DNA of 64,000 nucleotides, taken from assembly GCF_017352155.2 (NCBI RefSeq), contig NZ_CP084319.1, positions 124,001 through 188,000 on the forward strand. Direction: 5' to 3'. Below are positions 24,613-47,684 of the stretch, one piece after another; within the stretch, counting starts at the first letter, position 1; each line of letters opens with the position of its first letter. Below the pieces are notes generated by a model. The model searched no databases, was not told where the DNA came from, and worked only from the letters and a program-made list of their open reading frames with translations. Position numbers and translations under genes: made by a program. Source of the DNA: Haloterrigena alkaliphila. Lineage in GTDB: Archaea > Halobacteriota > Halobacteria > Halobacteriales > Natrialbaceae.

Positions 24613-25635
24613 AGCGGCCGCGCCCATAGATCTTTCTTGAGGGCTTCCCCACTTCGGTTACTGGAGAAGTCTGCCTTTCCGGCACTGTCTAGTTTAGCGA
24701 ATTCTTTACATATCTATTAATTTATCGGTACGGCCGATGTGTGTTGTAGTAGTGTACAAACTATTCAATTCTTTCTCTAACACTCGCCCGACTGACCACC
24801 CACGAATTGTAGAAGCGATCAACATATATCTTGATGACATGAAACTGCCATTTGGTCAGACTATTATAAATATAATCAATATAATAAATAATCCGTAATG
24901 AGGAAGGGGAACCAGATATCTGTATCTATCGACGAGAAATACCTACTTGGAGAGATCGTGTTTCCCGTCGACTAATGCAGAAATGCAGCGGCTGGATCGG
25001 TCCCTCGTCATCCGAAGATTACACCATCACGAATCAACGTGAGTCTATGTTGATTGCATCATATACCCAAGACCAGTCGCCGTTGATCTTGATAGTGATC
25101 TTATCAACCGCGATCCGCGACGACTGCGCCGTCTTCGGAACGCTTCGTATTTTGATACTGTTCTGTGAACGTCTCCAACTGTGACTCAGCATCTATTCAA
25201 CTTGGCAATTTATTGATGGTTTCATATGGGATCTCGGTTTCGTTATTATCGAATGCCCGCTTTCATAGCCATGGTTTATATCGGGCATGTTTCTCCACCC
25301 CAATATACAAAAGTACAGTTGTAAAAGACTACTATCGTTTCGATTTGACCGCTCGGAAACCTGGTTGCTCCTCCCTTCGATATATGCGAACGAGTGGTCT
25401 CTAAACGCTAAGGCTCATTTCCCGAGACCTGTGATCGCTATTGACTGTGTTTAGCAGCAAAATTACCGATTTCCGTTATCAGTTATTGTAGGCGGTTACA
25501 GGTCGGAATGATAAATGAAAATCAGATCTCTATCGCCGACTGACATTATTATGGTGTGATATTCAGGGTTGAAATAACTGTCGTGGACCATTGAGGCGCA
25601 GAAGTGATTAAGTGTTGCATTCCGAACGCACCAAT
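24613..25635. other. One-kilobase AT-rich intergenic region
   Basis: GC content falls clearly compared with both neighbours (for example the TATTATAAATATAATCAATA run near 24863). Short open frames are present, but none has a recognisable family, a good start or haloarchaeal acidic composition. It looks like decayed or foreign DNA between the recombinase and the IclR gene. Confidence 0.6.
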
Positions 25636-26427
25636 ATGACATCTGACACCCCATCACGGCGGATCAAGTCAGTTAGACGAGCCTGTTTACTCTTGATACA
25701 TCTCCGAGAAGTCGGTCCGACGACGGTAACGGAACTCGCGGATGAGTTTGATCTCTCACCTGGAACCGTTCACGCGTACCTTGCGACGCTCTGTGAGGTG
25801 GGATTCGTCGAACAGAACGGTGACGAGTACGCGCTCGGGCTTGAACTCCTGCCACTGGGTGAACACGTCCGCATGCAGCGCTCGCTGTATCAAGCAGCGA
25901 GGGGAGAGGTGGATCGGCTCGCTTACGCGAGCGATGGCGTCGCCCACTTACTCACGGAGTATGACGGGCAACTGATCGTACTCTACGAGGTTTTCGGCGA
26001 GAACGCCGTTGGCCGGGACTTTCACGCTCGGAAGCGAGATCGACCGCGAGAGCACATCCACTGCACTGCTGGGGGAAAAGCGATTCTCTCCCGGTTACCT
26101 GAACGGCGCGTCAGAACGATTGTGGCGGAGTTCGGACTCCCGGAATTCACTGAAAACACGATCACGGATCTTTCCGAACTCCTGGACGAACTAGGCGAAA
26201 TCCGCGAGCGCGGCTATGCGCTGAACGATCAGGAACAGATGCGTGGTATCCGCGCTGTTGGAGCGCCGGTGATCGACAGCAGTGGTGGTATAATCGGCGC
26301 GATAAGCGTCTCCGGTGCCGCGAGCAACTGGCGGGGGTCGTACTTCCGCGACGAACTCCCAGAACTCGTGACTCGATCGGCGAACAACATCGAGATCAAC
26401 CTTCAGTCCGATCCCAACGGGCGGTAG
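25636..26427 (+). CDS. IclR-family transcriptional regulator
   Basis: A 263-residue regulator. The winged HTH (residues 8-70) contains VTELADEFDLSPGTVHAYLA TLCEVGFVEQ. The effector domain (80-255) has the typical HIHCTAGGKAILSRLPE, RERGYALNDQEQMRGIRAVG and GIIGAISVSGA. IclR proteins bind small aromatic or carboxylic effectors and usually control an adjacent catabolic operon. This gene lies 233 bases before the carboxylase-like operon and points the same way, so it is the natural candidate regulator. The ATG at 25636 is chosen over an upstream in-frame codon at 25612. Confidence 0.9.
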   Translation: MTSDTPSRRIKSVRRACLLLIHLREVGPTTVTELADEFDLSPGTVHAYLATLCEVGFVEQNGDEYALGLELLPLGEHVRMQRSLYQAARGEVDRLAYASDGVAHLLTEYDGQLIVLYEVFGENAVGRDFHARKRDRPREHIHCTAGGKAILSRLPERRVRTIVAEFGLPEFTENTITDLSELLDELGEIRERGYALNDQEQMRGIRAVGAPVIDSSGGIIGAISVSGAASNWRGSYFRDELPELVTRSANNIEINLQSDPNGR

Positions 26428-26660: not shown

Positions 26661-28688
26661 ATGCCAAGACAAGACACACACTACGTCAGTATCGATACTG
26701 GTGGGACGTTCACCGACGGGTACGTCTCGTATCCGGAGGGGTCTACTACGGTTAAGGTCCCGACGACAGATCACGACCTGACGGTCTGCTTCCGGAACTG
26801 TATCGATAAGGCAGCAGAGAAACTCGAGCGATCAACGGAAGAGTTGCTCATCGATACCAACGTCATCCGGTTCTCGACAACGATCGGGACGAACACGATC
26901 ATTGAGCGATCCGGTCCGCAGATCGGCCTGATCGTCACCGACGACCGGAAGGAGGAACTGTTCCAAGTGGAGACCGATGACGATGAGGGCGTCTCCGACC
27001 TGACCGACGAAAACCTCGTCACGGGAATCCCCGAACGGGTCGACTCGGACGGCGAAGTCGTCGATCCGGTCGAGCGTGAGGACGTCCTCGAAGCGGCAAA
27101 GACTCTGATGAACCGAGGGGCGAAGCTTCTCGTCATCAGCCTCGACAACTCGTTCTACAACGAGAAGAACGAGGAACGGGCCCGGCGGATCATCGAAACT
27201 GAGTATCCGCCCCATTATTTGGGACCAAATCAGGTACTGACCGCCAACGAAGTCACCAGTCGACCGGGCTACCTCGCGCGCTCGTCAACGGCGCTCATTA
27301 ACGCGTACATTCACCGGCCGATGGCCCGATCGCTGTACAAGGCCGAGGACGATGTTCGCGAGAGCGGCTACGGGAACCCGTTACTCGTCGGCCAGTCAAC
27401 CGGTGGCGTCGCCGGCGTCTCCAAGACGGTTGCGCTTCACACGTACAACTCCGGTCCGGTCGCCGGGGTCCTGGGTGCGAAGGCGTTTCGCGAACTGTAC
27501 GACCTCGAGTCGGTTATCAGCACGGACATGGGCGGTACAAGCATCGACATCGGAACGATCACCGATGACGGCGTCGATCGGGAACTCGAACCGACCGTCT
27601 CCGGGCTGCCAGTACACGTGCCGATGATCAACGTTCGAACGGCCGGCGCCGGCGGCGGAAGCATTGCCTCGGTTGACGACGGCGAGTTCACCGTCGGCCC
27701 GGAGAGCGCCGGCGCCGAGCCCGGTCCGGCCTGTTACGATCTCGGCGGGTTCGAACCGACGACTACCGACGCCGACGTCGTCCTCGGATACATCGATCCC
27801 GATTACTTCCTCGGCGGTGACAAGCAACTCAACGCTGACCGCGCTCGAGATGCGATCGAACGATCGGTCGCGGACCCGCTTGACGTTTCCGTCGCGGAGG
27901 CGGCGCTGCGCGTTCGGGAGCGCGTCGACGAGAACATCGCGGCATCGATCACGGACCAGCTTGACGAGGGAGCCGATCCGGCCGAGACGACGGTCATCGC
28001 GTACGGGGGTGCGGGACCGATGCACTGCTGTACGTTCGCTGAAAAGGCGGGGATCGAACGGATCATCACGGCACCGGCAGCCGCGGAGTTCAGCGCCTTC
28101 GGCGGGGCAACGCTCGACGTCGAACACCGATACACGGCAGCGTTCGGTAGCCGATCGACGATCGCCGAGCCGTCGGTCTCCGTTGATGCCTACAACGAGA
28201 CCGTCGAAGAACTCGAGACGGAGGCGACGAAGGACATGCGCGGCGAAGGGTTCGACGCCGACGAGATCATGTTCGACCTTACGATGCTCGTCCGATCGGA
28301 CGGCGATGTCGAGGAACGGTCCGTGCCGATCCGAATCGACAGCCCGGACGACCTCGCAGAGGCGCTTGAGGGGCTCGGCTCCGATCCCGAAGAGTCGATC
28401 GGTCTCGACACGCTGGTCCTCACGGCGATCGGCCCGGTCGCGACCGAGGGATTCACCGAACGAGAGCTCCAGGGGAGCGACCCCGAACACGCCTACAAGT
28501 CCACGCGGACGGCCTACTGGCCGGACGACGGCTGGGTCGAGACCGACGTCTACCAGCGTGAAGACCTTGAGCCGGGGAACGTCGTCAACGGCCGCGCGAT
28601 CATCGAGGCGACGGACACGACGTACGTGATCCCCGACGCCTGGACCTTCGAGATCGACGAGTACGAACACGGAATCATCGAACGATGA
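26661..28688 (+). CDS. HyuA-like ATPase subunit 1 of an acetophenone-carboxylase-type complex
   Basis: A 675-residue (~72 kDa) hydantoinase A/oxoprolinase-family protein with an actin-like ATP-binding core. Visible are the N-terminal phosphate loop IDTGGTFTDGYV, IRFSTTIGTNTIIERSGP and STALINAYIHRP. The second phosphate loop is STDMGGTSIDIG, followed by RTAGAGGGSIASV, GPESAGAEPGPACY, VIAYGGAGPMH and the C-terminal VNGRAIIEATDTTYVIP. It is the first gene of a five-gene operon and its stop overlaps the next start (ATGA). In acetophenone carboxylase two different proteins of this kind activate CO2 and the ketone by phosphorylation. A cyclic-amide hydrolase role is the main alternative. Confidence 0.88.
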   Translation: MPRQDTHYVSIDTGGTFTDGYVSYPEGSTTVKVPTTDHDLTVCFRNCIDKAAEKLERSTEELLIDTNVIRFSTTIGTNTIIERSGPQIGLIVTDDRKEELFQVETDDDEGVSDLTDENLVTGIPERVDSDGEVVDPVEREDVLEAAKTLMNRGAKLLVISLDNSFYNEKNEERARRIIETEYPPHYLGPNQVLTANEVTSRPGYLARSSTALINAYIHRPMARSLYKAEDDVRESGYGNPLLVGQSTGGVAGVSKTVALHTYNSGPVAGVLGAKAFRELYDLESVISTDMGGTSIDIGTITDDGVDRELEPTVSGLPVHVPMINVRTAGAGGGSIASVDDGEFTVGPESAGAEPGPACYDLGGFEPTTTDADVVLGYIDPDYFLGGDKQLNADRARDAIERSVADPLDVSVAEAALRVRERVDENIAASITDQLDEGADPAETTVIAYGGAGPMHCCTFAEKAGIERIITAPAAAEFSAFGGATLDVEHRYTAAFGSRSTIAEPSVSVDAYNETVEELETEATKDMRGEGFDADEIMFDLTMLVRSDGDVEERSVPIRIDSPDDLAEALEGLGSDPEESIGLDTLVLTAIGPVATEGFTERELQGSDPEHAYKSTRTAYWPDDGWVETDVYQREDLEPGNVVNGRAIIEATDTTYVIPDAWTFEIDEYEHGIIER

Positions 28689-29653
28689 GCGGGCGCAGTC
28701 AATCGGCCGTCGAGTACTTCCGCGGTCGCCAGGACGATCCCCGACCCTGGTTTCCGCTGATCGGGCGGCTCGCCGCATCGATCAACCAGGTCCCCCCGGA
28801 GATATTCCTCTCGAACGCCACGCAGCAGACCAACGGGATTCAGAGTGCGTATCGACTGTTCGAGCCCGATGCGGTCTGTACCGCGATCGATACGACGCTC
28901 GTCGCGGAGGCGCTGGGCGCGGCGGTCGAATGGAACGAGTCGACGGACTCGTTCGACGTAGTCGACCCCATCGCGTCACCCGACGAAGTGACAGATCCGT
29001 CGACGGTACAGGACCGCGGTCGGCTTCCGACGGTGACCGACGTCGGCGAGCGGCTCGCGACCAACCTCGACGAGCCCGCGGTCGTCGGCGTCGTTCCCGG
29101 TCCACTGACGACCCTGGAGGCGACGTTCGGCGCGGACGCCGCTCTCGAGACCGATCGCACTAAACCGATCCGGACGGCCATCGGCGAACTCGGCCGCGCG
29201 TTCGGGAAGGCGAACGTCGATGCTATCCTCGTCTACGAGGACGTCGATCGGCTCGACGAGGGTAGCGGGGACGCTGCGGACGTGACCGTCGAGACGCTGG
29301 AGATGCTCGACAATATAACCGGTTTCTACAACACGCCGCTCGTCGTCGCCCCGAACGGCTACGCGGACGCGACGATCGAGGCGGTCCTCGAGCGCGCTCA
29401 ACCTGCGGGCGTGTTGCTCGATACCGACGACCCGGCAGCGAGCGCCGAGCGTTACCCGGACGTTCGCGTCGGCGGCGGAATCACGGATGAACTACTGGAA
29501 GCGGAGCCGGACGAGATCCGGACGCGGGTCGAGGAACGGTGTGCCGACCTCCCGAACTCGGGATTCCTCGCCAGCGGTCGCGAAGTCCCGCCGGACATCC
29601 ATCCGACGGAGCTACAGGCAGTGAGCGACGGACGGCCGGAGACCGATGGATAG
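28685..29653 (+). CDS. ~34 kDa operon protein, possible epsilon-type subunit (UroD/methyltransferase-like fold)
   Basis: A 322-residue protein embedded in the operon with a four-base overlap to the gene before it. The sequence is weakly like the uroporphyrinogen decarboxylase/cobalamin-independent methyltransferase barrel: FPLIGRLAASINQVPPEIFL, TDVGERLATNLDEPAVVGVV PGPLTTLEA, ALGAAVEWNE and VGGGITDELLE. Acetophenone carboxylase of Aromatoleum needs a separate epsilon subunit of about 34 kDa besides its core, and this protein has that size and context. Whether they are homologous I cannot tell from sequence alone. Confidence 0.6.
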   Translation: MSGRSQSAVEYFRGRQDDPRPWFPLIGRLAASINQVPPEIFLSNATQQTNGIQSAYRLFEPDAVCTAIDTTLVAEALGAAVEWNESTDSFDVVDPIASPDEVTDPSTVQDRGRLPTVTDVGERLATNLDEPAVVGVVPGPLTTLEATFGADAALETDRTKPIRTAIGELGRAFGKANVDAILVYEDVDRLDEGSGDAADVTVETLEMLDNITGFYNTPLVVAPNGYADATIEAVLERAQPAGVLLDTDDPAASAERYPDVRVGGGITDELLEAEPDEIRTRVEERCADLPNSGFLASGREVPPDIHPTELQAVSDGRPETDG

Positions 29654-29694: not shown

Positions 29695-30051
29695 ATGGGA
29701 GAAACTGATACTACCACGAACCGAACGAAACGGGTCGCGGAATACCTGGAGGTCGATCTCACGAACGAACAGTGGCAGTGCGCCCGGTGTACGGAGACGC
29801 TGGGGCCGGCGAACGAGAACTACAAGCGCGGTTGTCTGGTGAACGAGCGCAACCCGCGCGAGGTTCATCCGCCGATCCTCGAGGACGAGGAGTACTCGTT
29901 CGCACCGGACCCCGATTGGGTTCGGATCGTCGAGTTCTACTGTCCCGGCTGCGGGACCATGATCGAGAACGAGTACCTCCCGCCGGGCCATCCGATCACG
30001 AACGACACGCAACTGGACCTCGAGAAACTGAAGGAGGAACACGACGGATGA
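29695..30051 (+). CDS. Small zinc subunit (acetone/acetophenone carboxylase gamma-like)
   Basis: A 118-residue (~13.6 kDa) protein. Two CxxC pairs, Cys29/Cys32 (QCARC) and Cys83/Cys86 (YCPGCGTMIE), flank an acidic middle with NYKRGCLV. A small protein with two such knuckles is the hallmark that separates ketone carboxylases from ordinary hydantoinases and oxoprolinases, which have only A and B subunits. The gene starts 41 bases after its upstream neighbour and its stop overlaps the next start (ATGA). An earlier ATG at 29659 is in another frame and leads only to a 16-codon frame. Confidence 0.75.
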   Translation: MGETDTTTNRTKRVAEYLEVDLTNEQWQCARCTETLGPANENYKRGCLVNERNPREVHPPILEDEEYSFAPDPDWVRIVEFYCPGCGTMIENEYLPPGHPITNDTQLDLEKLKEEHDG

Positions 30052-32195
30052 CCACCCAGATCAACATCGACGCGGGCGGAACGTTCACCGACTGCTTCAC
30101 GGTCCACGACGGCGAGGTGGTCTCGGCGAAGACGCCGACGACGGAGCACGACATGTCGGAATGTTTCTTCCGTGGTATCGAGAAGTGCGCCTCGCAACTC
30201 GGTCTCGGTCTCGAGGACCTCATCGGTGAGGTGGACTCGATCCGCTACTCGACGACGACAGCGATGAATCGGCTCATCGAGCGGAAGGGTCCCAAGCTCG
30301 GACTGCTCACCACCGCAGGCGTCCAAGACTATCCCCAGATCGGTCGCGGGCCGCGGTGGGCCGACGGTCTGACCGACAGCGAGCAGCGCAACATCTCGGA
30401 CGCGAAGAAACCGGAGTACCTCGTCCCGGACTCCCGAACCAACGGCATCCGCGAGCGCGTCGACAGTGAGGGGAACGTCCTACGACCGCTCGACGAGGAG
30501 CACGCCCGCGAGCAGATCCGCAATCTCGTCGATAAGGGCGCTCGGGCCATCGTAGTGAACCTCCTGTGGTCGTACGAGTATCCGGAGCACGAAAAGCGTC
30601 TCCGCGAACTCGTTCGGGAAGAGTACCCGCCCTCGTACCTCGGCAGCATCCCCGTGTTCCTCTCCTCGGAGGTCATGCCGACCAAGCAGGAGTACGAGCG
30701 GACCAACACTACGCTGCTGGACGCGTACCTCTCGGAGCTGATGCAGGAGCACATCGCTGACATCAAGGACCGCTTAGAGGTCCACGGCTACGAGGGCGAC
30801 ATTCAGATGCTCCACAACACCGGGGGAATGGCTGAGTCATACAAGACGACCGCCGTCGAGACGTTCAACGGCGGCCCGGTCGCCGGCCTGAAGGGCGGCG
30901 AGTACCTCTGCGACGTGCTCGGCTACGAGAAGGCCGTCGTGACCGACATGGGTGGTACGAGCTTCGACATCGGCATCCTCACCCAAGGCGGCGTCGAGTC
31001 CTACGAGTTCGAGCCGGTGATCGACCGCTGGCGCGTCTCCGGGACGATGATCGAATCGAAGTCGATCGGCGCCGGAGGCGGATCGATCGCGTCAGTCAAC
31101 GACGACCTCGGCGGGCGGATCGAGGTCGGTCCAGAGAGCGCCGGTGCCGACCCCGGGCCAGCCTGCTATAACCGTGGTGGCACGAAGCCGACAGTGACTG
31201 ACGCCGACGTCGTCCTCGGATTTATCGACCCGGAGAAGTTCTACGCGGGGAACCAGCGGCTGGCGGTTGAGCGCGCCGAGGAAACGATCGAGACCCACGT
31301 CGCTGATCCCGCGGGGATGGACGTCGAGGAGGCGGCCGCGAACATCCGGCGGATCGCCGACGGGAACATGGGCAACACCGTCCGGAAGGAGACGATGCTC
31401 CGCGGGCATGACCCACGGGAGTTCATGCTCTACAGCTTCGGCGGTGCAGGGCCGCTGCACGCCGCATCGTACTCATCGTATCTCGACATCGACACCGTCG
31501 TCACGACGCCGTACTCACCGGTGTTCTGCGCGATGGGATCGGCGACGATGGACACGCTGCACATCTACGAGCAGTCGCACTCGATGTACCTCCGCGAGTC
31601 CGGCGAACGAGCGGAGTACACGACCGACTACGAGGCATTCAACGAGGTCGTTGAGGGCCTGAAGGCGAAGGGGCGCCGCGATATCCGAAGTGAGGGCTAC
31701 GACCCGGACGACATCGAGTACGAACTCGAACTGGACATGCGCTTCGGCGGTCAGATCCACGTCGTCCGGGTGCAGTCACCCCGGATTGAACTGGGCGAGG
31801 CGGCAGACGTCGAGGCCCTCTGCGAGCATTTCATGGACCAGTATAAGGAGCGGTTCTCCTCGTACTCGGTCACGCCTGACCATGGAATCACCGTGGAGAA
31901 CTTCGCGCTGAAGTCACGAGTCGCCAGCCCCGACGTTGAACTACCCACTGCGTCGCTGAACGATACTGACCCCTCGCCGGCACGGACCGGCAGCCGTGAC
32001 ATTATGTGGACAGGGCGCGAGGAGTACGTCTCGACCCCGGTGTTCGAGTACGAGGATCTGCGCGCTGGGATGGAGATCGAAGGGCCCGCGGTCGTCGACG
32101 CCGATTACACGACGACGGCCGTCCCCGACGATTGGAGTTACCGCCTGGACGAATACCGCAACGGAATTCTCGAAACTGACGGAGACAACCAATGA
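30048..32195 (+). CDS. HyuA-like ATPase subunit 2 of an acetophenone-carboxylase-type complex
   Basis: A 715-residue (~79 kDa) second HyuA-family subunit, clearly a paralogue of the first but not a copy of it. The motifs are INIDAGGTFTDCFTV, IRYSTTTAMNRLIERKGP and TDMGGTSFDIGIL, then SIGAGGGSIASV, GPESAGADPGPACY, YSFGGAGPLHAA and VVDADYTTTAVP. Extra segments not in the first subunit include GRGPRWADGLTDSEQRNIS near residue 100. The reading frame is open about 90 codons further upstream, but the ATG at 30048 overlaps the preceding stop and starts exactly at the family N-terminus. Two unequal A subunits in one operon is the alpha/alpha' arrangement of acetophenone carboxylase. Confidence 0.88.
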   Translation: MTTQINIDAGGTFTDCFTVHDGEVVSAKTPTTEHDMSECFFRGIEKCASQLGLGLEDLIGEVDSIRYSTTTAMNRLIERKGPKLGLLTTAGVQDYPQIGRGPRWADGLTDSEQRNISDAKKPEYLVPDSRTNGIRERVDSEGNVLRPLDEEHAREQIRNLVDKGARAIVVNLLWSYEYPEHEKRLRELVREEYPPSYLGSIPVFLSSEVMPTKQEYERTNTTLLDAYLSELMQEHIADIKDRLEVHGYEGDIQMLHNTGGMAESYKTTAVETFNGGPVAGLKGGEYLCDVLGYEKAVVTDMGGTSFDIGILTQGGVESYEFEPVIDRWRVSGTMIESKSIGAGGGSIASVNDDLGGRIEVGPESAGADPGPACYNRGGTKPTVTDADVVLGFIDPEKFYAGNQRLAVERAEETIETHVADPAGMDVEEAAANIRRIADGNMGNTVRKETMLRGHDPREFMLYSFGGAGPLHAASYSSYLDIDTVVTTPYSPVFCAMGSATMDTLHIYEQSHSMYLRESGERAEYTTDYEAFNEVVEGLKAKGRRDIRSEGYDPDDIEYELELDMRFGGQIHVVRVQSPRIELGEAADVEALCEHFMDQYKERFSSYSVTPDHGITVENFALKSRVASPDVELPTASLNDTDPSPARTGSRDIMWTGREEYVSTPVFEYEDLRAGMEIEGPAVVDADYTTTAVPDDWSYRLDEYRNGILETDGDNQ

Positions 32196-34252
32196 CTGTC
32201 GACCGCGACCAACTGATCGACTGGCTCGACCTCGAAGAACCGTCCTCAGACGAACTGGCTTGCATGGACGACCTAGAACACGGCGACTATGAGATCTACT
32301 CCGAGCGCCTGCGGCTCATCCTCGACGAGGGGATGGACGTGTTCGTCCGCTCGGGCGTCTCGCAGTTCATCGCCGCTCGCGACCTCGCGGTCGCCATCTA
32401 CACGCCGGAGGGCGACCTCGTCGACTCCGCGGCCGGCGCGTACCTGCACGTCGTCACGGGCGTCCCACCGCTGAAGTACGTCATCAACAACTTCGCCGAC
32501 GACGAGACCGTCGGCGTCGAGCCCGGTGACGTATTCTACGCGAACGACGCGCTCTACGGCGGCATCCACAACCCCGACCAGATCGCGTTCATGCCCGTCT
32601 TCCACGACGGGGAGATCATGGCGTGGGTCTCCGCCGCCGCTCACACGACCGAGACTGGCGCCATCGAACCCGGCGGCATGCCGATTTCCGCTCGGACTCG
32701 CCACGACGAGGGGATGAAGCTCTCGCCGATCAAGATCGGCGAGGACTACAAGCTCAAAAGCGACATGGTGGAGATGCAGAAGAACTTCATCTCCCGCGCC
32801 CCCCGGATGCACGAGATTGACCTCAGGGCTCGCGTCACGACCTGCGATCGGGTCCGTCGACGCATCAAGGAACTCATCATCGATAAGAAGGGGCCGGACT
32901 TCTTCAAGGGACTCATTCGCCGAAACATCAAGGAGTCCCAAGAGGGTGCCAAGAGGCGCATCGATGAGTGGAACGACGGCACCTTCCAGACGGTCCACTT
33001 TGCGGACACGGTCGGCTACGAGGACGGCCTCTGGCGGCTGAAGGCGGAGATGGAGAAGGACGGTCCCGAGATACACATCGACTACAGTGGCACCTCGCCG
33101 GAGAACGATGGTTCGTTCAACACTCAACCGGTCGCCGCTATCGCTCACACCGCGAACTACATGTTCAGCGTCCCATTCCACGACCTGCCCAAGAGCAACG
33201 GGACCTACGACCTCATCGACTTCGACATCCCGAAGGGATCGATCCTCTACCCCGATCCGGAGGCGTCGACGGTCCAAGCGGTGATGGTCAACCAGGTGAT
33301 CATGGACTCGACGACGACACTGTTTTCGCGGTCGATGTACGACGAGGACAGCGAGAACGAGCACGTCACCGCACCGATGGCTAATACCGCACCCGGGTAC
33401 GCCTTCGGCGCCGAGAACCAGCACGGTGAGCCGGTCGCTGACCTCATGTCTCACGCGCTCAACACCGACGGTACTGGTGGGCAGGCCCGGCGCGACGGCG
33501 AGGACGAGGCAATCTTCCCATGGTGTCCGTTTGGCCATGCCTCGAACATGGAGTTCGTCGAGAACGAATACCCCTTCACGCATCAGTACTTCCGCCACGG
33601 GACCGACTCCTGTGGCCATGGCAAGCACCGCGGCGGAATCGGGATGCAGATCGCATACATGATGCACCACGTTCCCGTCGTCGAGTGGCTGTCGATCTGT
33701 CACAACTCGAAGCTCGTGACCGGACAGGGCCTGTTCGGCGGCTACGCGCCACGAACGATCCCTGGGATCACAATCACTGATTCGGATCTCAAGGAACGGA
33801 TGGCAAACGGGGAGTACGTCCCCGACGACCTCATCGAACTACTGCAGGACCGAACGCTGGACGCCGACTACAATATCACTAGCCACGTCCGCGAGTCGAA
33901 GCCCTACGAGAACGGCGACCTCTTCGTCGGTCACTCCGGTGGCGGCTGCGGATACGGTGACGCGCTTGAGCGCGATCCCGACGCTGTCATGGAGGACATC
34001 GAAAACGACCGCGTGACCCATCGGTCCGCGAAGGAGATCTACCAGATCGAGTACGACGAGGAGACGCTCACCGTCGACGAGGAAGCGACCGAACGCCGTC
34101 GAGAGGAATTCCGCCAGCAGCGACTCGAGGAAGCCCAGTCGTTCGGCGGATTCATCGACGAGTGGGAAGAAAAGCGACCCGACGACGAGATCCTCGAGAA
34201 CTACGGCAGCTGGCCAGATGGAGAGAAGACGGAACCAGTGATGCGACAGTAG
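32192..34252 (+). CDS. HyuB-like subunit of an acetophenone-carboxylase-type complex
   Basis: A 686-residue (~77 kDa) hydantoinase B/oxoprolinase-family protein. Hallmarks are the N-terminal EIYSERLRLILDEGMDVFVR, YTPEGDLVDSAAGAYLHV and GDVFYANDALYGGIHNPDQI. The core has AWVSAAAHTTETGAIEPGGM, IDYSGTSPENDGSFNTQP and FRHGTDSCGHGKHRGGIGM. The C-terminal GHSGGGCGYGDALERDPDAV is the usual glycine-rich end. In known complexes the B subunit carries the condensation or hydrolysis site fed by the ATPase subunits. Its start overlaps the stop of HyuA-like subunit 2 by four bases. It is the last gene of the operon, 105 bases from the convergent CoA ligase. Confidence 0.9.
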   Translation: MTVDRDQLIDWLDLEEPSSDELACMDDLEHGDYEIYSERLRLILDEGMDVFVRSGVSQFIAARDLAVAIYTPEGDLVDSAAGAYLHVVTGVPPLKYVINNFADDETVGVEPGDVFYANDALYGGIHNPDQIAFMPVFHDGEIMAWVSAAAHTTETGAIEPGGMPISARTRHDEGMKLSPIKIGEDYKLKSDMVEMQKNFISRAPRMHEIDLRARVTTCDRVRRRIKELIIDKKGPDFFKGLIRRNIKESQEGAKRRIDEWNDGTFQTVHFADTVGYEDGLWRLKAEMEKDGPEIHIDYSGTSPENDGSFNTQPVAAIAHTANYMFSVPFHDLPKSNGTYDLIDFDIPKGSILYPDPEASTVQAVMVNQVIMDSTTTLFSRSMYDEDSENEHVTAPMANTAPGYAFGAENQHGEPVADLMSHALNTDGTGGQARRDGEDEAIFPWCPFGHASNMEFVENEYPFTHQYFRHGTDSCGHGKHRGGIGMQIAYMMHHVPVVEWLSICHNSKLVTGQGLFGGYAPRTIPGITITDSDLKERMANGEYVPDDLIELLQDRTLDADYNITSHVRESKPYENGDLFVGHSGGGCGYGDALERDPDAVMEDIENDRVTHRSAKEIYQIEYDEETLTVDEEATERRREEFRQQRLEEAQSFGGFIDEWEEKRPDDEILENYGSWPDGEKTEPVMRQ

Positions 34253-34357: not shown

Positions 34358-35689
34358 TCAGTCGTCTTTAACTACTAGATCCGCCTTGTACTCCGAAAGT
34401 TCGATCGACTCGAGGTCGGCCGGGCGTGGATCGATTCGCACCTTCAATCGAGAGCGGACCATCGAGATCGCATCGTCGACGATTTTGTCCGTATCGCGAT
34501 TACTGTCCGGATCAACGACGACGCGAAGCGGAATTGGTTCCTCGAAGTGCACTTTGTCGGCATCGGGAACGACGACCTGTGCATGGGGCAGAAGCCCATC
34601 GACATCGGAGACGACGTCACGAAGCGCCGACGGGAAGACGTTCATCCCCTTGTAGATGAGCATATCATCCGTCCGTCCGATGCACTGGATCTTTGGGGAG
34701 GTCCGCCCGCAGGGACATTCTGTCCCAGTCACGCGGACGACGTCACCAGATCGGAATCGCAATAGCGGCGTCGCCTCCCGCTGCAAGGGCGTGTAGACGA
34801 GTTCGCCTTCAGTACCCTCTTCAAACGGAGTAACTTTCCCCGTCTCGGGATCGATCAGTTCGACGTGCACGTGTCCCTGTCCGTGATAGTGCATTCCATC
34901 TTCTTGATCACATTCGGCCCAGAGACAGGCGATGACGTCTCCCAGTCCCATGATCTCTCGAACCGTCGTCGCGTTCCACTCTTCGGCGAGTTCTCGGCGG
35001 ATCTCCGGATTCGCGATTCCGGGTCCGCCGCCGCCGATGAGTTTCGTGAGCGGGAGTTCGTCAACGTCGTGACCGAGCAGTTCCGGTGCGTTCTCCGAGA
35101 GATATCGGAGGTGAGAGGTCGTAGTAAAGAGCACGTCGCCCGAGAGGTCCGTGATCGCGGAGAGGAGTCGATCAGTGGTGCCGCCGCCTGCAGGGACGAC
35201 GTTGCAACCCAGTTCAGTGAGTCCCTCGAAATACGGCGTTCCACCTGGAACCATTGTCTGTCCAACGCCGAAGATCACGGTATCTTCCGGACGTATACCG
35301 GCGGTGTAGAAACAGCGCTGAAGCACCTCGTTCCACTTCCGCCGGTCGGCGTCCGTCAGCCCGAAGTACGTCGGCTTACCAGTCGTTCCGGAGGAAGAAA
35401 TGGTCCGGTTGAGAGCCTCAGTCGGCGCTGCCTGATGGTCTCCGAGCGGCCGCTCGGCATCGGTGTCCTCTTGACACGCGCGCTCGTCGTCCTTCGTCGT
35501 GAACGGAACGTCTCGTAACGCCTCGAGGGAGTCGATATCCGCCGGATCGATCTCCCACTCGTTGAACCGATCCCGATAGAAGCCTGACTCCGTCGCGAGG
35601 TACTCGATTTGTTCCGCGAGGAGGTCCTCGTGCAGCCGTTTGATCTCGGTCCACGGTCTGGTCTCTATCGAAGCATATGCGTCGCCCAT
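34358..35689 (-). CDS. PaaK-type AMP-forming acyl-CoA ligase
   Basis: A 443-residue ligase of the phenylacetate-CoA ligase family, which activates aryl or acyl acids with ATP and CoA. ATP-loop ISSSGTTGKPTYFGLT (around 95-110), IFGVGQTMVPGGTPYFEGL, GGGGPGIANPEIR, EIMGLGDVI and the FRSGDVVRVT...CPCGRTSPKI hinge region are present. The C-terminal domain begins GRTDDMLIYKGMNVFPSAL. The start at 35689 (MGDAYASIETRP) matches the family, and an AATTTATCATA box lies just upstream. In Aromatoleum the benzoylacetate from acetophenone carboxylase is activated by a dedicated CoA ligase, so this convergent neighbour may do the same. An unrelated aromatic acid is the alternative. Confidence 0.87.
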   Translation of the reverse strand: MGDAYASIETRPWTEIKRLHEDLLAEQIEYLATESGFYRDRFNEWEIDPADIDSLEALRDVPFTTKDDERACQEDTDAERPLGDHQAAPTEALNRTISSSGTTGKPTYFGLTDADRRKWNEVLQRCFYTAGIRPEDTVIFGVGQTMVPGGTPYFEGLTELGCNVVPAGGGTTDRLLSAITDLSGDVLFTTTSHLRYLSENAPELLGHDVDELPLTKLIGGGGPGIANPEIRRELAEEWNATTVREIMGLGDVIACLWAECDQEDGMHYHGQGHVHVELIDPETGKVTPFEEGTEGELVYTPLQREATPLLRFRSGDVVRVTGTECPCGRTSPKIQCIGRTDDMLIYKGMNVFPSALRDVVSDVDGLLPHAQVVVPDADKVHFEEPIPLRVVVDPDSNRDTDKIVDDAISMVRSRLKVRIDPRPADLESIELSEYKADLVVKDD

Positions 35690-35734: not shown

Positions 35735-36265
35735 TGAAATGGTCGTGTTGAGTTTGTAGCATTGTGCCAGACGGCGAAGGCTTGGAGCCACGATTCAGCT
35801 GTTGACGGTTGTGCGTGACTGAAACAGTTTGAGAACGAAGAAGTACGTCGTTTTATCTCACTGAAGACACGTTCAGCAGCGTTCCTATTTTTCATATCGA
35901 AATCGGAGCCTCGATTGACGGAGTACAGTTTAGAGATATTTTGCTCCATCGACGAGAAACACGGCATCATCGAGATCATGTTTCTCAGTGAGTTCCTGCA
36001 GGAACCGTTCTGTCAACGCGGTCGTAGTCGTTGACTACAGCCTCATATGGAGAATATTGTTCGTTTCTGGATCGACAGCAGTGTACAGCCAATAACGATA
36101 TTCGTTGAGTTGAATCACTGTCTCGTCGAGCGCGACGTGATTCGGCTTCTCGTCATCCGTTGGCTGTAGATTGCACTTGTGAATCCAATCGTGGACGGCC
36201 TTTCGACTCCGTTCGATACCGGACCTCTCTAATTCCCGAACTATATTAGAAGGTGAGAGGTTGGT
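35735..36265 (-). pseudogene. Relic of an IS6-family transposase
   Basis: Read on the minus strand, the remains give SRKAVHDWIHKCNLQP, KPNHVALDETVIQLNEYRYW, LYTAVDPETNNILHMRL then a stop, LTERFLQELTEKHDLDDAVF LVDGAKYL then a frameshift, and NRNAAERVFSEIKRRTSSFS followed by HAQPSTAESWLQAFAVWHN. This is the order and wording of haloarchaeal IS6-type DDE transposases. At least one nonsense codon and one frameshift show it is dead. Inverted repeats are not recognisable. Confidence 0.8.
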
Positions 36266-36744: not shown

Positions 36745-38307
36745 ATGCCAAGAAGTGACAAACACGTCTTTCGCCGACCAGATGGAGAGACGCTCGAGTC
36801 GCTCGCGGCGGACATTGGACTCTCTCTAACGCCTAACGAACGCGACGACTATGAGACCCTAGTCTCCGGTGCGATCGACGGCTTGGCCGGGATTGAACAG
36901 GGACCGTCGTTCGATCCGGGCCTCGAACCGGTGACTCTCGACGGCAGGGAGCGGGGATACCGGCCGACTGTGGACGAGGATCCGCTGAACGCCTGGATCA
37001 CGAAAGGTGAGGTCCGCGGCGAGACGGACGGACCGCTGTCGGACGTCACCGTCGGCGTCAAGGACTCGATCGCCGTCGCCGGGTACGAGATGACGGCCGG
37101 ATCCAGAGTGCTCGAGGGGTTCGTTCCCCGGATCGACGCGTCCGTGGTCTCCCGCCTCCTCGAAGACGGTGCGACGATCGCTGGCAAGCTTAACATGGAG
37201 AGTTTCGCCTGGTCGGGTCGCGGTGATATCTCTGATTTCGGCCCGGTAGAGAACCCGCATGGGGAGAACCGGCTTCCCGGAGGCTCGTCCAGTGGATCGG
37301 CCGCGGCTCCCGCAAACGACGAGTGTGACGTCGCACTCGGAACCGATCAGGCCGGCTCGGTCCGCATTCCGAGCTCCTGGTGTGGACTCGTCGGACTGAA
37401 ACCCACTCACGGACTCGTTCCCTATACGGGTACGCTACCGCTCGAAGTGAGTCTCGATCACATCGGCCCGATGGCCCCGACCGTCGATCTCGTCGCCACT
37501 GCGCTCGATGCGATCGCCGGCGTCGACGTCGTTGACGGGATCCAGTTAGACCAGCGCCAGCCACGATCCCTCGAGACTGACTCGTACGCTGACTCCGTCG
37601 ACGACAACATCGAATCCCTCTCAATTGCGGTCCTCGAGGAGGGATTCGGCTGGGAATTCTCTGAATCCGAAGTCGACGACGCTGTTCGGGATACCGCAGC
37701 GACGTTCGAGGACCTCGGTGTCTCCTGTGAGACAGTTTCGGTGCCGATCCATCGACGAGGAGTGAGCGCATGGGCGGCCATCGCCTCACAGGGTGGACGG
37801 CGTCTCCTCCGAGAGGGCGGCGTCGGAACCAACCACACCGGCTGGACGTGGACTCGTCTTGCCAGAGCGCTCAAGTCGGCGCTCGACGCTCGGACAGACG
37901 AACTGCCACCGACGGTCAAACGGTCGCTCCTCGCAGGCGAGTTTCTGGCGGATACGTACGGTGTCGAACCGTACGCGAAAGGGCGCAACGTCGCAATGGC
38001 TGCGCGACAGATGTATGACGAGATCCTGGCGGAGCACGATGCTCTCCTCCTGCCGACGACGGCAACGCGTGCCTTCGAAGGGCCGGCGGCCTTCGATCGA
38101 GTCGACGCACTCGAGCGGGAGATACAGACGATCGTCAACACCTGTCCCTTCAACCTCACCGGCCATCCAGCCGTGTCGGTGCCGTGTGCGAAGCCGGACG
38201 GACTCCCGGTGGGTGCGATGCTCGTCGGCTCTCGGTTCGACGAGACGACGCTTCTGGCGCTAGCCGGAGCGTACGAACGTGCCACGGAGTGGGAGGATCA
38301 ACCGTAG
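36745..38307 (+). CDS. Amidase-signature family amidase
   Basis: A 520-residue member of the amidase signature family, which hydrolyses amides with a Ser-cisSer-Lys triad. The catalytic lysine is in TVGVKDSIAVAG, and the serines lie in LPGGSSSGSAAAPA and LGTDQAGSVRIPSSWCGLVG LKPTHG. A helical C-terminal region ends ATEWEDQP. The N-terminal 70 residues (LADDIGLSLTPNERDDYETL-like) resemble those of amidases found in nitrile and indoleacetamide operons. The substrate is unknown. It stands alone downstream of the IS6 relic and upstream of a broken sensor-kinase gene. GatA is an alternative family member, but no gatB or gatC partner is present. Confidence 0.88.
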   Translation: MPRSDKHVFRRPDGETLESLAADIGLSLTPNERDDYETLVSGAIDGLAGIEQGPSFDPGLEPVTLDGRERGYRPTVDEDPLNAWITKGEVRGETDGPLSDVTVGVKDSIAVAGYEMTAGSRVLEGFVPRIDASVVSRLLEDGATIAGKLNMESFAWSGRGDISDFGPVENPHGENRLPGGSSSGSAAAPANDECDVALGTDQAGSVRIPSSWCGLVGLKPTHGLVPYTGTLPLEVSLDHIGPMAPTVDLVATALDAIAGVDVVDGIQLDQRQPRSLETDSYADSVDDNIESLSIAVLEEGFGWEFSESEVDDAVRDTAATFEDLGVSCETVSVPIHRRGVSAWAAIASQGGRRLLREGGVGTNHTGWTWTRLARALKSALDARTDELPPTVKRSLLAGEFLADTYGVEPYAKGRNVAMAARQMYDEILAEHDALLLPTTATRAFEGPAAFDRVDALEREIQTIVNTCPFNLTGHPAVSVPCAKPDGLPVGAMLVGSRFDETTLLALAGAYERATEWEDQP

Positions 38308-43408: not shown

Positions 43409-45274
43409 TCAGTCGTGGCGATCCTCGAACTCGCGGCGCTCGTCGGCAATCTGGTCAGCGAGTTCCTCGTCGTCCGGGAGCGGCCCGTAATCGAACTCCG
43501 CGGGCTCACCACGGGTCTCGCGGCGGTTCTCACGAATTTCTTCGGTCGCGGCCTCGTCGACGGTGCCGTCTTCGAGGACGACGCCGTACTCCTCGCGGGC
43601 GGCATCGGCCGAGATGAGCCCCTGCCGGACCTCTTCAGCGACGAGTTCCGGGTCGCGTTCGAGGGGGTCGCCCAGTCCGCCGCCGCCGGCGGTCCGGAAG
43701 ACGAGCTTGTCGCCGGCCGAGACGGCGACGTTCTCGACCTTGGAAGGGAGTTCCTCCTCGGTGCCGTCCGTACGGATGAGCTTCTTCTCGCTGGTCTGGG
43801 CGTGTTTCCCGCCGTCGACGCCCCACGGGTAGGTGTGTGCCCGGTCGTCCTGAAACGTGATCGCGCCGTCTTCCTCGAAGGTGTAGACCTTCGTGATTCC
43901 GTGGCCGCCGCGGAATTGTCCGGCGCCGCCAGTATCGGTTCGCGTACTGTACTCGTCGATGGTAAGCGGATAGTAGGCCTCCTGATACTCGGCAGGGACA
44001 GTCCGGAACAGCGGCCACCAGGAGTGGCCGTCGAGGCCGTCACCGCCCGGTCGGGCGGGGATGCCGCCGTAGAGGATCTCGAGCATCTGGAAGTCGTTGC
44101 CCTCGGAGTCAGTACCGGCGTAGACCAAGTTTGGCGAGGTGCCGTAGCTGCCGGCGACGCTGAAGTCGTCGATGAGCTTCGAGAACGTCGCCTGCAGAAC
44201 GTCGAACTGTCGGGCCATCAGGGGCAGCCGGTTACCCAGGGCGGCCGGGAACTCCGGCTGAACGACGGTCCCTTCGGGCAGGTTGACCTCGAAGAGGTCG
44301 TAGTACCCGTCGTTGAACGTCAGCAGCGGGTCGAAGGCCATGATGAGGAAGACCCCGGTGAACATCTTGAACATCTTCTCGTTCAGGAGGAAGTTCACCG
44401 TGCCGGGGACCTGATCGTCGGTCCCCTCCCAGTCGAGGTGGACGGTGTCGCCCTCGCGGTAGATCTCGAGGTGGAGCTTGATGGGGCCGTTGCCCATCCC
44501 GTCGTCGTCGACGTAGTCCTCGAAGGTGTAGCGTTCGCCCTCGGGAACGAACTCGCGGATGAGGTCGATCATCCCGTCGCGAGTGCGGTCGAGAATGGCG
44601 TCACAGCCCTCGAGGTAGGTCTCCTTCCCGAACCGCTCACAGAGTTCCTGGACGCGGGATTCGGCGACGGCCGTGCCGGCTGCGAGCGCCTTGATGTCCG
44701 CCTCGGCGTGTTCGGGGAGCCGCGTGTTGTGCGCGAACGTCTCGAGGAGTTCGCTGTCGAACTCGCCGCCCTTGTAGAGTTTGACCGGCGGGAGTCGCAT
44801 CCCCTCTTCGAAGATGGTCGCCGCCTGGACGGGCATGCTGCCGGGGGTCTTCCCCCCGACGTCCATCAGGTTGCCCCACTGGCTGCCGAAGCCGACGAGG
44901 TCGCCCTCGTAGAAGATCGGCCGAAGCAACAGCATGTCCGGCGTGTGCGAGACCGCGCCGGCACACATGTAGGGATCGTTGGTCGCGATGACGTCGCCCT
45001 CGTTCAGTTCGTCCCAGCCGAAGGGAGCGTTCTCGATGATCGTGTCGATGGCGCTGCCGAACTGGCCCATGACCATCCGTCCCTGCGGGTCGGCGATCAG
45101 CGGGAACTGATCGGACTGTTCCCTGATGACCGGGCTGATCGCCGTCGTCTCGAGGACGCGGTCCATTTCGTGGCGCGTGTTCGAGAGCGTGTTCTCGATG
45201 ATGTCGAGGGTCGTCGCGTCGATGTCGTGATCCCCGACGAAATCGGGGGTAGCGTCGGCTGTGTGCTGGCTCAT
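43409..45274 (-). CDS. hyuB: Hydantoinase/oxoprolinase subunit B
   Basis: A 621-residue HyuB-family protein with DIIENTLSNTRHEMDRVLET at the N-terminus, DVIATNDPYMCAGAVSHTPD, LHLDWEGTDDQVPGTVNF and ARPGGDGLDGHSWWP. It ends with FRTAGGGGLGDPLERDPELV. It is shorter than the B subunit of the carboxylase-like operon and lacks that protein's extra segments. The start overlaps the hyuA stop by four bases. With HyuA it should hydrolyse a cyclic amide such as 5-oxoproline, hydantoin or N-methylhydantoin at the cost of ATP. Confidence 0.92.
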   Translation of the reverse strand: MSQHTADATPDFVGDHDIDATTLDIIENTLSNTRHEMDRVLETTAISPVIREQSDQFPLIADPQGRMVMGQFGSAIDTIIENAPFGWDELNEGDVIATNDPYMCAGAVSHTPDMLLLRPIFYEGDLVGFGSQWGNLMDVGGKTPGSMPVQAATIFEEGMRLPPVKLYKGGEFDSELLETFAHNTRLPEHAEADIKALAAGTAVAESRVQELCERFGKETYLEGCDAILDRTRDGMIDLIREFVPEGERYTFEDYVDDDGMGNGPIKLHLEIYREGDTVHLDWEGTDDQVPGTVNFLLNEKMFKMFTGVFLIMAFDPLLTFNDGYYDLFEVNLPEGTVVQPEFPAALGNRLPLMARQFDVLQATFSKLIDDFSVAGSYGTSPNLVYAGTDSEGNDFQMLEILYGGIPARPGGDGLDGHSWWPLFRTVPAEYQEAYYPLTIDEYSTRTDTGGAGQFRGGHGITKVYTFEEDGAITFQDDRAHTYPWGVDGGKHAQTSEKKLIRTDGTEEELPSKVENVAVSAGDKLVFRTAGGGGLGDPLERDPELVAEEVRQGLISADAAREEYGVVLEDGTVDEAATEEIRENRRETRGEPAEFDYGPLPDDEELADQIADERREFEDRHD

Positions 45275-47334
45275 TGTGAATCGCCTCGCGTTATCTCGAG
45301 GTTCGCGTACCGATCGACCGTGGCCGTGTGATCGGGCTGGACGACGACCGTCGAGTCGTCGTCGGTGACGATCGCCGGGCCGGCGATGGCGTTGCCTGGA
45401 CGCAACAGCGTTCGGTCGTAGATCGGCGTCTCGTGGTAGCTGTCGTCGAAGAAGACCTCCTGCGTGCCGACCTCGGCCTCGCTCGGATCCTCTCCGCCGA
45501 CCTCGCGCTCCTCGAGCGTGACGCCCTGGATCGTGCCCTTACCGATGACGCGGAGGTTCGCGATCTCCAGCGGGGCGTCGAGCGAGAAGCCGAAGCGCTG
45601 CTCGTGGCGCGCCTCGAAGTCGTCTTTGATCTCCGCAATTCCCTCGTCGGTCCGGAGGTTCGAAACATCGATCGGGATCGACATCTGGACGTCCTGACGG
45701 TAGTACCGGCAGTCGGCGTAGTACTCGAAGGCGTGGTTCTCCTCGCCCACGCCCTCGGAGACGAGCCAGTCGGTCGCCTCCTGCTTCAGTTCCTGATACG
45801 CGTCGTACACCGCTGCCCCGTCGACGTCCTGGTCCGTCTTCAGGTACGTCTCGGAGAACTCGTTTTGGACGTCGCTAGTCAGGAAGCCGAAGGCGCTCAT
45901 GACTCCCGGTCCCGGTGGGACGATCAGCGGGTAGGCGTCCATCACGTCCGCCAGCGCGTTGGCGTGCATCGGACCGGCACCGCCGAAGGCGACGAGTCCG
46001 AAGTCCCGCGGGTCGTAGCCGCGCTCGACGGAGACGACCCGAAGCGCACCGTACATGTTCTCGTTGACGATATCGAGGATCGCCTGTGCGGCCTCCTCGA
46101 CGGAACTGTCGCGCTCGTCCGCGACCGTTTGAATCGCGTCTCGAGCCGCGTCGCGGTCGAGGTCCATCGTCCCGCCGAGCTGGACGTTCGACGGAATCCG
46201 CCCGAGAACGACGTTCGCGTCGGTTACGGTAGGCTCCTCACCACCCTGCCCGTAACAGGCCGGTCCCGGATCCGCACCGGCGCTCTCGGGTCCGACCTGA
46301 AGCGATCCCGACAACTGGACGCGAGCGATGGAGCCACCGCCAGCACCGACCGTGTTCACGTCGACAGCTCGGGACTTGAACTCCCGATAACCGACTTTCG
46401 TCTGCCGCGTCGTCTCGGGCTTGCCGTCCTCGACCAGCGAGACGTCCGTCGAGGTGCCGCCCATGTCCAGGGTGAGCACGTCGGGAACGCCCTTCTTTTC
46501 GGCGATGGTCGCCGCGCCGACGACGCCGCCGGACGGCCCCGATAGGGCGAGTTCCACCGGCCGGTGTTTCGCGGCGTCGGAACTCATCAGTCCGCCGTCC
46601 GAGCGTACGACGTTCATTTTCGCGGTCGAGCCGGCGTCCTCGAGCGAGTCGTCGAGATCCTCGAGGTAGTCGATGACCTGCGGCCGGGCGTAGTCGTTAA
46701 TGACCGTCGTCAGCGTCCGCTCGTACTCGCCGTACTCCGGAACGATCTCTGCGGAGATCGATACCGGAAGGTCTGGACACTCGTCCTGAATGATGTCCCG
46801 GACCTCTCGCTCGTGAGTCGGGTTCAGATACGAGTTCAGGAGAGCGACGGTCAGCGACTCGACGCCCGAATCGGCGAGTTCCCGGACCGCCGCTCGGACC
46901 TCGGCCTCGTCGATCGGCTCCTGTTCGGCCCCCTCCGGCGAACCGATCCGGCCGCTGACGCTCCGCGTGTCTACGAGGTCCGCCAGCGGCGCCGGCTTCT
47001 CCATGTCCATCCAGCCGTAGAGCGGACCCGGCGTCCACGCACGTGCCAAGTGTAAGATGTCCTCGTGACCCTCGCTGGTGATCAGTCCCACTCGGGACCC
47101 CGTCTCCTCGAGCAACATGTTCGTCACTACTGTCGTTCCGTGGAACAGCAGGTTCAGGTCGCTGACGGTCGTTCCGGCCTTTTCGACGGCCTCTTCGACC
47201 CCGTCGATGACCCCCTCCGACGGGTTCGACGGTGTCGAGAGTACCTTGTCGGTCGTGAGTTCGTGGGTGTCCTCGTCGAAGACGATGACGTCGGTGAACG
47301 TCCCACCCACGTCCACTCCTAGGTTGTGTGGCAT
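45271..47334 (-). CDS. hyuA: Hydantoinase/oxoprolinase subunit A
   Basis: A 687-residue ATPase subunit with NLGVDVGGTFTDVIVFDEDT, LLFHGTTVVTNMLLEETGS, TVINDYARPQVIDYL and LDMGGTSTDVSLVEDG. NTVGAGGGSIARV, GPESAGADPGPACYGQGGEE and VAFGGAGPMHANALAD follow. ATG at 47334 is chosen because the family begins there; another ATG in frame at 47355 is possible. A minus-strand TATA (GTATATAAATG, 47398-47408) lies upstream. This A subunit is of the classical type and has no small zinc partner, so it is functionally distinct from the two A subunits at 26.7-32.2 kb. Confidence 0.92.
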   Translation of the reverse strand: MPHNLGVDVGGTFTDVIVFDEDTHELTTDKVLSTPSNPSEGVIDGVEEAVEKAGTTVSDLNLLFHGTTVVTNMLLEETGSRVGLITSEGHEDILHLARAWTPGPLYGWMDMEKPAPLADLVDTRSVSGRIGSPEGAEQEPIDEAEVRAAVRELADSGVESLTVALLNSYLNPTHEREVRDIIQDECPDLPVSISAEIVPEYGEYERTLTTVINDYARPQVIDYLEDLDDSLEDAGSTAKMNVVRSDGGLMSSDAAKHRPVELALSGPSGGVVGAATIAEKKGVPDVLTLDMGGTSTDVSLVEDGKPETTRQTKVGYREFKSRAVDVNTVGAGGGSIARVQLSGSLQVGPESAGADPGPACYGQGGEEPTVTDANVVLGRIPSNVQLGGTMDLDRDAARDAIQTVADERDSSVEEAAQAILDIVNENMYGALRVVSVERGYDPRDFGLVAFGGAGPMHANALADVMDAYPLIVPPGPGVMSAFGFLTSDVQNEFSETYLKTDQDVDGAAVYDAYQELKQEATDWLVSEGVGEENHAFEYYADCRYYRQDVQMSIPIDVSNLRTDEGIAEIKDDFEARHEQRFGFSLDAPLEIANLRVIGKGTIQGVTLEEREVGGEDPSEAEVGTQEVFFDDSYHETPIYDRTLLRPGNAIAGPAIVTDDDSTVVVQPDHTATVDRYANLEITRGDSQ

Positions 47335-47397
47335 ATGGTATCGTACGGGTACCATGACCGGAGCAGTTCGAGTAAGCGTTCTCCCAACCAGTGGTGG

Positions 47398-47629: not shown

Positions 47630-47684
47630 CAGCCAACACTGGGTGGAACAACTGTCTTTCGTCGCGGGGCTGTGGGTCAGGGAA

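Follow-up and report, generated by a model that had tools for sequence, protein, structure and literature searches.

Does the gene for a PaaK-type acyl-CoA ligase beside an acetophenone carboxylase (Apc)-like operon of Haloterrigena alkaliphila encode the CoA-activating partner of that carboxylase, and would the ketone degraded by the pair be an aromatic one? The carboxylation of a ketone costs two ATP and is followed by CoA activation and thiolysis, a route that has been characterised for aromatic ketones in one bacterium. In Aromatoleum aromaticum, the apcABCDE-bal cluster encodes acetophenone carboxylase together with a benzoylacetate-CoA ligase, Bal (accessible part of PMC4729919), and only one enzyme of the Apc branch had been characterised as of 2017, according to the accessible text of a structural paper (PMC5214803). 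The carboxylase itself is already known from hypersaline settings, since an acetophenone carboxylase gene was tabulated in 2011 from Dead Sea fosmids, as a lateral-transfer match to Azoarcus at 45% (accessible part of PMC3236060). Within the accessible portions of the open-access literature, we found no description of this ligase, or of an Apc-ligase pairing, in archaea. Here we analysed a stretch of 64,000 nucleotides (the window) from the 285,490-base replicon C2 of H. alkaliphila, which, compared with a main contig of 3.82 Mb, indicates that the window lies on a plasmid-like replicon. Our results suggest that the ligase is probably the CoA-activating partner of the adjoining five-subunit Apc-type ketone carboxylase.

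The window carries genes for all five types of Apc subunit, epsilon being recognised by remote similarity only, and they are preceded by a gene for an IclR-family regulator (Table 1). For every carboxylase gene the best NCBIfam models are those of Apc subunits, with all scores below the equivalog cut-offs, and among solved structures the alpha-, beta- and gamma-like proteins are closest to Apc. In particular, the alpha-like protein matches 5l9w_B at 4.5e-211 and the acetone carboxylase chain 5svb_B at 6e-110, and the beta-like protein matches 5l9w_A at 2e-180 and acetone carboxylase at 3e-50. The alpha fingerprint R/KERiDsxG is present as RERVDSEG, and the four zinc cysteines of gamma are retained as both CxxC pairs in an alignment with 5l9w_C inspected by eye. 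The epsilon-like sequence matches the recently solved ApcE structure 9fou weakly (7.5e-5), and its model (pLDDT 92.4) shows a URO-D fold that is farther from 9fou (Z 24.9, rmsd 3.2 over 286 residues) than from URO-D and a methyltransferase (Z ~32).

The alpha-prime-like protein departs from the known enzyme in several respects. It scores higher with the alpha model (ApcC, 465.6 bits) than with the alpha-prime model (ApcA, 422.6 bits), neither score reaching the equivalog cut-off, and it matches 5l9w_B at 1.8e-129 and 5l9w_b at 4e-104. It also contains the sequence PERVDSDG in the fingerprint segment, which the accessible text of the structural paper describes as not conserved in alpha-prime (PMC5214803), and it has Asn/Asp/Asp at the proposed bicarbonate site Glu248/Asp274/Lys281, without the Glu and the Lys. 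In addition, the order of alpha-prime, gamma, alpha and beta is retained, and epsilon, which stands last in apcABCD(E), is second, after alpha-prime and before gamma; this holds for the window as well as for the five other haloarchaeal operons described below. Judged by these differing alpha-prime residues and by the position of epsilon, the operon classes as an Apc-like variant, with a predicted carboxylase chemistry. Acetone carboxylase (5svb, 5m45) likewise has homologous alpha, beta and gamma subunits and catalyses an ATP-dependent ketone carboxylation; however, it consists of three subunits, lacks alpha-prime and epsilon, and gives far weaker matches. A closer look-alike of acetone carboxylase lies elsewhere on the same replicon, outside the window, where an alpha-beta-gamma set at C2:46638-52619 (L031:6639-12620) has an AMP-forming acyl-CoA ligase gene directly downstream and forms a second ketone-carboxylase and ligase pair.

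Table 1. Features of the ligase-operon region, in positions of the window
Feature	Position	Strand	Basis
IclR-family regulator, first gene of the conserved block	25612..26427	+	PF01614 3e-28, PF09339
Apc alpha-prime-like subunit, HyuA type (apcA position)	26661..28688	+	NCBIfam, 5l9w
Apc epsilon-like subunit, URO-D fold	28685..29653	+	PF01208 3e-13; NCBIfam ApcE 6e-8
Apc gamma-like Zn-ribbon subunit (apcB product)	29695..30051	+	PF08882 3e-33; 5l9w_C 1.5e-39
Apc alpha-like subunit (apcC product), proposed ketone kinase	30048..32195	+	NCBIfam ApcC 755 bits
Apc beta-like subunit, HyuB type (apcD product)	32192..34252	+	NCBIfam ApcD 681 bits
PaaK-type AMP-forming acyl-CoA ligase, proposed beta-keto acid:CoA ligase	34358..35689	-	family models, alignment, neighbourhood
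IS6-family insertion-sequence remnant, between ligase and amidase	35741..36260		blastn
Amidase, candidate pathway member	36745..38307	+	PF01425 2e-88; PRK07235 569.7 bits (cut-off 545)

The ligase gene is an intact, stop-free reading frame of 443 amino acids that begins with an ATG. A sequence-only reading of this region had placed a PaaK-type ligase gene 105 bases from the end of the operon and convergent with it, which is exact according to the coordinates of the reading frames and the family models. As ligase and operon are convergent in this organism, they do not form one transcript. An IS6 remnant, for which blastn gives up to 87% identity with annotated IS6 family transposase sequences of haloarchaeal plasmids, begins some 50 bases upstream of the start of the ligase gene, which makes expression of the ligase in this strain uncertain.

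The top NCBIfam models for the ligase are those of PaaK; nevertheless, its scores of 276.6 bits with NF041878 (cut-off 700) and 199.7 bits with TIGR02155 (cut-off 646.3) would class it as a PaaK-type protein that is clearly no PaaK equivalog. Its nearest solved structures are the phenylacetate-CoA ligases 4r1l (7e-49) and 2y27 (4e-47), and the next structural relative is the 2-hydroxyisobutyryl-CoA synthetase 6hdw (5e-34). A PaaK-like sequence and the ANL motifs place it in the PaaK-type ligase superfamily: the ATP loop SSSGTTGKPT, CPCGRTSP and GRTDDMLIYKGMNVFP are all intact, and SSGTTG, CxCGRT and GRxDxMxI are conserved across a 16-row alignment of ligases. Thus it shares family, length, ATP loop and signature motifs with PaaK (2y27, 2y4o, 4r1l and the haloarchaeal PaaK of NF041878), but differs from PaaK in belonging to a separate clade and in having ketone carboxylase genes instead of paa genes as neighbours. 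In a maximum-likelihood tree of 41 ligases, the window ligase grouped with other haloarchaeal ligases in a clade whose sister group consists of two actinobacterial ligases (100/99), and together the haloarchaeal ligases and those of the Actinomycetota MAG BP_132 were well separated from haloarchaeal PaaK; the Apc-linked haloarchaeal ligases formed no supported group that excludes those without an operon. An AlphaFold model intended for inspection of the ligase pocket was unusable (5-row alignment, pLDDT 40.9) and supports no claim about the pocket.

Among 392 haloarchaeal genomes drawn from the order, an orthologous operon, defined by an ApcA identity of at least 72%, was found in six, namely H. 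alkaliphila itself, Halobellus inordinatus (G260), Halopenitus malekzadehii (G264), Halopenitus persicus (G206) and two further genomes (G168 and G141); three of the six belong to one genus-level group (g62). The block iclR-apcA-apcE-apcB-apcC-apcD is whole in all six, with the IclR-family gene always upstream of apcA. Directly after apcD, five of the six carry the ligase gene (68-78% identity), so the neighbourhood on which the sequence-only reading had built is conserved in these genomes, and the ligase is encoded with an Apc-type carboxylase there as Bal is. The ligase gene is convergent in two of the five, with gaps of 105 bases in the window and 84 bases in Halobellus, and is the last co-directional gene, with gaps of 46-82 bases, in the three g62 genomes, two of which are Halopenitus. 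This recurrence in five of six operon-bearing haloarchaea shows that the adjacency of ligase and operon is beyond chance.

Some observations count against the pairing of carboxylase and ligase. First, a search of the whole genome of G168, in which an amidohydrolase gene follows apcD, revealed no PaaK-type ligase at E 1e-10. Second, an intact ligase of the window clade (at least 53% identity) occurs in 14 of the 392 haloarchaea, and in nine of these 14 no operon adjoins it. The operon-free ligases of the clade have as neighbours genes for a GMC oxidoreductase, alcohol and aldehyde dehydrogenases, an SDR, an enoyl-CoA hydratase, IclR regulators and ABC transporters or, in another context, a thiolase-like and an OB-fold protein; a Halosolutus relative from a different genome collection is included here. 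Second ligase copies (53-54%) lie distant from the operon in H. persicus and G141, and on a plasmid of Haloterrigena sp. KLK7, of the same genus, the ligase copy is broken and is the only one. A shared operator of ligase and operon was considered and rejected: the palindrome TTTGGTAATACCAAA upstream of apcA in H. persicus is not well matched anywhere near the window operon, its three 3-mismatch matches in the window being at 56970-60510. In a separate set of loci from Marine Group IV/Halobacteriales MAGs (L028, L027 and L029), an apcD-like gene, an SDR-clustering gene, an apcB-like gene and an apcC-like gene stand in a row, with no alpha-prime gene within the cluster; three of these MAGs have an ApcA-like match on a different contig.

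The pairing extends to bacteria. Searching 84,980 species genomes with the beta-like subunit as query yielded 17 loci, none from Aromatoleum, of which one (L112) is a plain hydantoinase-like match and two (L111 and L106) come from one MAG, BP_132; the reading frames of retrieved loci, the haloarchaeal ones included, were called by simple in-house scripts, not taken from annotation. L106 carries, codirectional from apcD onwards, apcD, an epsilon-like gene, a gene for a ligase 43% identical to the window ligase, an enoyl-CoA hydratase gene and PaaA/PaaC-like genes; its epsilon-like protein has no NCBIfam match and was named from position and a weak alignment, and its PaaB- and PaaD-like genes were identified by eye. 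L111 contains part of apcA, then apcB, apcC and the beginning of apcD; its overlap with L106, judged by eye, is about 55 bases long with a single mismatch, and across the two contigs the order is apcA-B-C-D-E-ligase, like that of apcABCDE-bal. Similarly, a second BP_132 contig carries apcE-like, ligase, thiolase-like and amidase genes, and G622 has the order apcC-apcD-apcE-like-ligase-thiolase-amidase, with a thiolase that matches 4dd5 at 1.2e-39; the thiolase of L154 was read by eye, and the L160 relative was identified by search. In G619, the ligase gene is on the same strand 6.3 kb from apcD and is not adjacent to it. Among 296 genomes of the class of BP_132, three, BP_132 included, have the ligase at E 1e-80. 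The flanking stretches examined at the other bacterial Apc-like loci contain no close PaaK-type gene; at L109 an acetate/propionate-CoA-ligase-type gene is divergent beside apcA, and at L113 a family III CoA-transferase gene precedes apcA.

Activating a beta-keto acid would require such a succession of ligase and thiolase; both the substrate of the ligase and the order of the reactions are inferred. The carboxylase would drive the carboxylation of a methyl (or methylene) ketone with ATP to yield a beta-keto acid, the ligase would adenylate this acid and then transfer it to CoA, and a thiolase encoded elsewhere would cleave the beta-ketoacyl-CoA, releasing acetyl-CoA and a shorter acyl-CoA. Given the linkage in haloarchaea and the clusters in Actinomycetota, a partnership of ligase and carboxylase with subsequent thiolysis is well supported, and the conserved linkage in two domains of life supports a carboxylase-ligase pair for ketone breakdown. 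Accordingly, the proposal that the carboxylase has a CoA ligase dedicated to it was borne out in five of six haloarchaea and in the actinobacterial clusters, two of which have a thiolase gene next. The further proposal that the ligase completes a route from ketone to acyl-CoA goes too far for this organism: no thiolase gene adjoins the window operon, and searches of the window genome detected no BoxB and no PaaA-like protein. Four thiolase-type proteins are encoded elsewhere in this genome (1e-20). The amidase is a candidate member of the pathway: amidase genes follow ligase and thiolase in two actinobacterial clusters, with about 30% identity to the window amidase, and it has no match in the stretches around the five other haloarchaeal orthologous operons.

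It is plausible that the system is an archaeal variant of the Aromatoleum apc-bal pathway. Both cluster five types of carboxylase subunit with a CoA ligase, Bal being compared by gene context alone; in contrast to apcABCDE-bal, the haloarchaeal order is alpha-prime, epsilon, gamma, alpha, beta, followed by a convergent or last co-directional ligase gene. A conserved archaeal version of the carboxylase with a linked ligase amounts to a concrete pathway in Halobellus inordinatus, Halopenitus persicus and H. malekzadehii.

Whether the ketone is aromatic has to be decided on other grounds than the family of the ligase. The sequence-only reading had argued from a preference of this family for aryl acids to an aromatic ketone, an argument that fails in view of same-family ligases with aliphatic substrates or in aliphatic operons. 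Among these, 6hdw, a relative of PaaK1 and PaaK2, activates the aliphatic substrate 2-hydroxyisobutyrate in Aquincola (accessible part of PMC8388817); it belongs to the PaaK-like ligase family and is more distant from the window ligase than PaaK is. In addition, ligase relatives of 40-41% identity are found in Nitratireductor and Roseovarius operons together with genes for acyl-CoA dehydrogenase, enoyl-CoA hydratase, biotin carboxylase and HMG-CoA lyase. "PaaK-type" alone is therefore no warrant for "aryl acid", and the same relatives speak for the strongest alternative, in which the two-step route would be the same, the ketone would be aliphatic or branched, and the ligase would activate an aliphatic beta-keto acid. 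Consistent with this alternative are also the missing ring-attacking CoA oxygenase (BoxB or PaaA-like) in the window genome and the FGVGQTMVPGG stretch of the ligase, in which the alignment places Val at the positions of the PaaK1 Tyr and Phe that we presume to line the phenyl pocket.

Against an aliphatic ketone stand the residues of the carboxylase: at the alpha ketone site, four of the seven residues listed in the accessible text of the structural paper (PMC5214803) are the same as in Apc (F281, N282, P285 and I333), whereas acetone carboxylase shares two (L81 and P285). The acetone-carboxylase-like set with its own AMP-forming ligase on the same replicon also argues against it, as does a link to PaaA-like oxygenases in BP_132 and four of the six operon-bearing haloarchaea. 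The PaaA-like oxygenase of L106 is 48-52% identical to proteins in these four genomes, and PaaA-like proteins occur in 42 of the 392 haloarchaea overall, so that four of six is an excess (Fisher p 0.0015, uncorrected for phylogeny), three of the four positives being of one genus-level group. The haloarchaeal genes are at a locus apart from the operon, together with PaaC-like and DUF59-type genes and, in g62, with an enoyl-CoA hydratase gene whose product is 46% identical to that of L106. Near them is a benzoate-CoA-ligase-family protein, which scores 410 bits in Halobellus, above the cut-off of 375.25, and 371.7 bits in H. persicus, just short of it. Apc-type residues and PaaA-like link thus back aromaticity with moderate strength and separately from the ligase family; we lean slightly towards an aromatic, acetophenone-like ketone, and we regard an aliphatic one as a serious contender that is nonetheless rather unlikely.

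The known ring-opening systems were considered for the operon-bearing haloarchaea and rejected: BoxB, and with it ring opening by BoxAB, was found in none of the six at E 1e-3, and the matches to PaaA in four of the six are every one below the PaaA cut-off. The PaaA/PaaC-like oxygenases below the PaaA cut-offs form a subfamily (for example, L123:7335-9696 and L122:7583-9855), which is present in 42 of the 392 haloarchaea, is accompanied in the four loci inspected by a benzoate-CoA-ligase-family-like protein and is a candidate for an unrecognised aryl-CoA oxygenase. We tentatively propose, with rather less than even confidence, that haloarchaea and some actinobacteria share an aerobic aryl-ketone route of Apc-type carboxylase, PaaK-type ligase, thiolase and PaaA-like aryl-CoA oxygenase, in which the PaaA-like subfamily would be neither PaaA nor BoxB and would travel with the benzoate-CoA-ligase-family protein in haloarchaea. 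If so, this would be an archaeal carboxylation-dependent ketone pathway with a hint of another benzoyl-CoA-type epoxidase, of which the window organism would carry the upper half only, on a plasmid-like replicon. A starting point for finding the ring-opening step is the oxygenase of PaaA-like type encoded next to the actinobacterial cluster.

A different chemistry is conceivable for the complex, which could be an ATP-dependent lactam or imide hydrolase whose freed acid the ligase would activate. Two-subunit hydantoinases are homologues, an amidase gene lies 1.06 kb from the ligase start, a HyuA/HyuB pair is encoded at 43409-47355 of the window, and the window alpha-prime is without the Glu and Lys of the proposed bicarbonate site. 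The same direction is indicated by two bacterial loci, an Actinomycetes MAG (L103:2108-12019) in which an Apc-like operon comes right after genes for a cytosine/allantoin-type permease and urocanase, and a Tectomicrobia MAG (L155:6903-10195) in which a PaaK-type ligase gene comes after a HyuB-like gene on the same strand. The L103 context suggests N-heterocycles, histidine-derived or other, as substrates of some Apc-like complexes, and its urocanase gene is a warning against taking every such complex for a ketone carboxylase. However, the window operon encodes a gamma Zn-ribbon subunit, which is absent from hydantoinases according to the accessible text of PMC5214803, as well as alpha-prime and epsilon-like subunits, and the thiolase gene right after the ligase gene in two actinobacterial clusters fits a beta-ketoacyl-CoA, so that we consider a hydrolase improbable and retain the ketone carboxylase. 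Least probable is that the ligase serves another pathway, as an ordinary CoA ligase for phenylacetate or an aryl acid, and lies beside the operon by chance. The PaaK-type call of the family models, the nine of 14 genomes without an adjoining operon and the paa-like genes by the L106 ligase gene, possibly a plain paa cluster, could be cited for this reading, but it is hard to reconcile with scores far under the PaaK equivalog cut-offs, a place outside the haloarchaeal PaaK clade and a position beside apcD that recurs, with two orientations, in five of six haloarchaea and also in three actinobacterial clusters.

Two other groups of genes in the window were observed in passing. At 43409-49994, the genes of a two-subunit hydantoinase (HyuB and HyuA, minus strand) are divergent from those of a family III CoA-transferase and an isopropylmalate-synthase-like HMGL protein. 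In addition, a phosphoenolpyruvate carboxylase gene on the minus strand appears to be split into N- and C-terminal reading frames (18824-20611 and 20698-21564), possibly by a frameshift or as a pseudogene.
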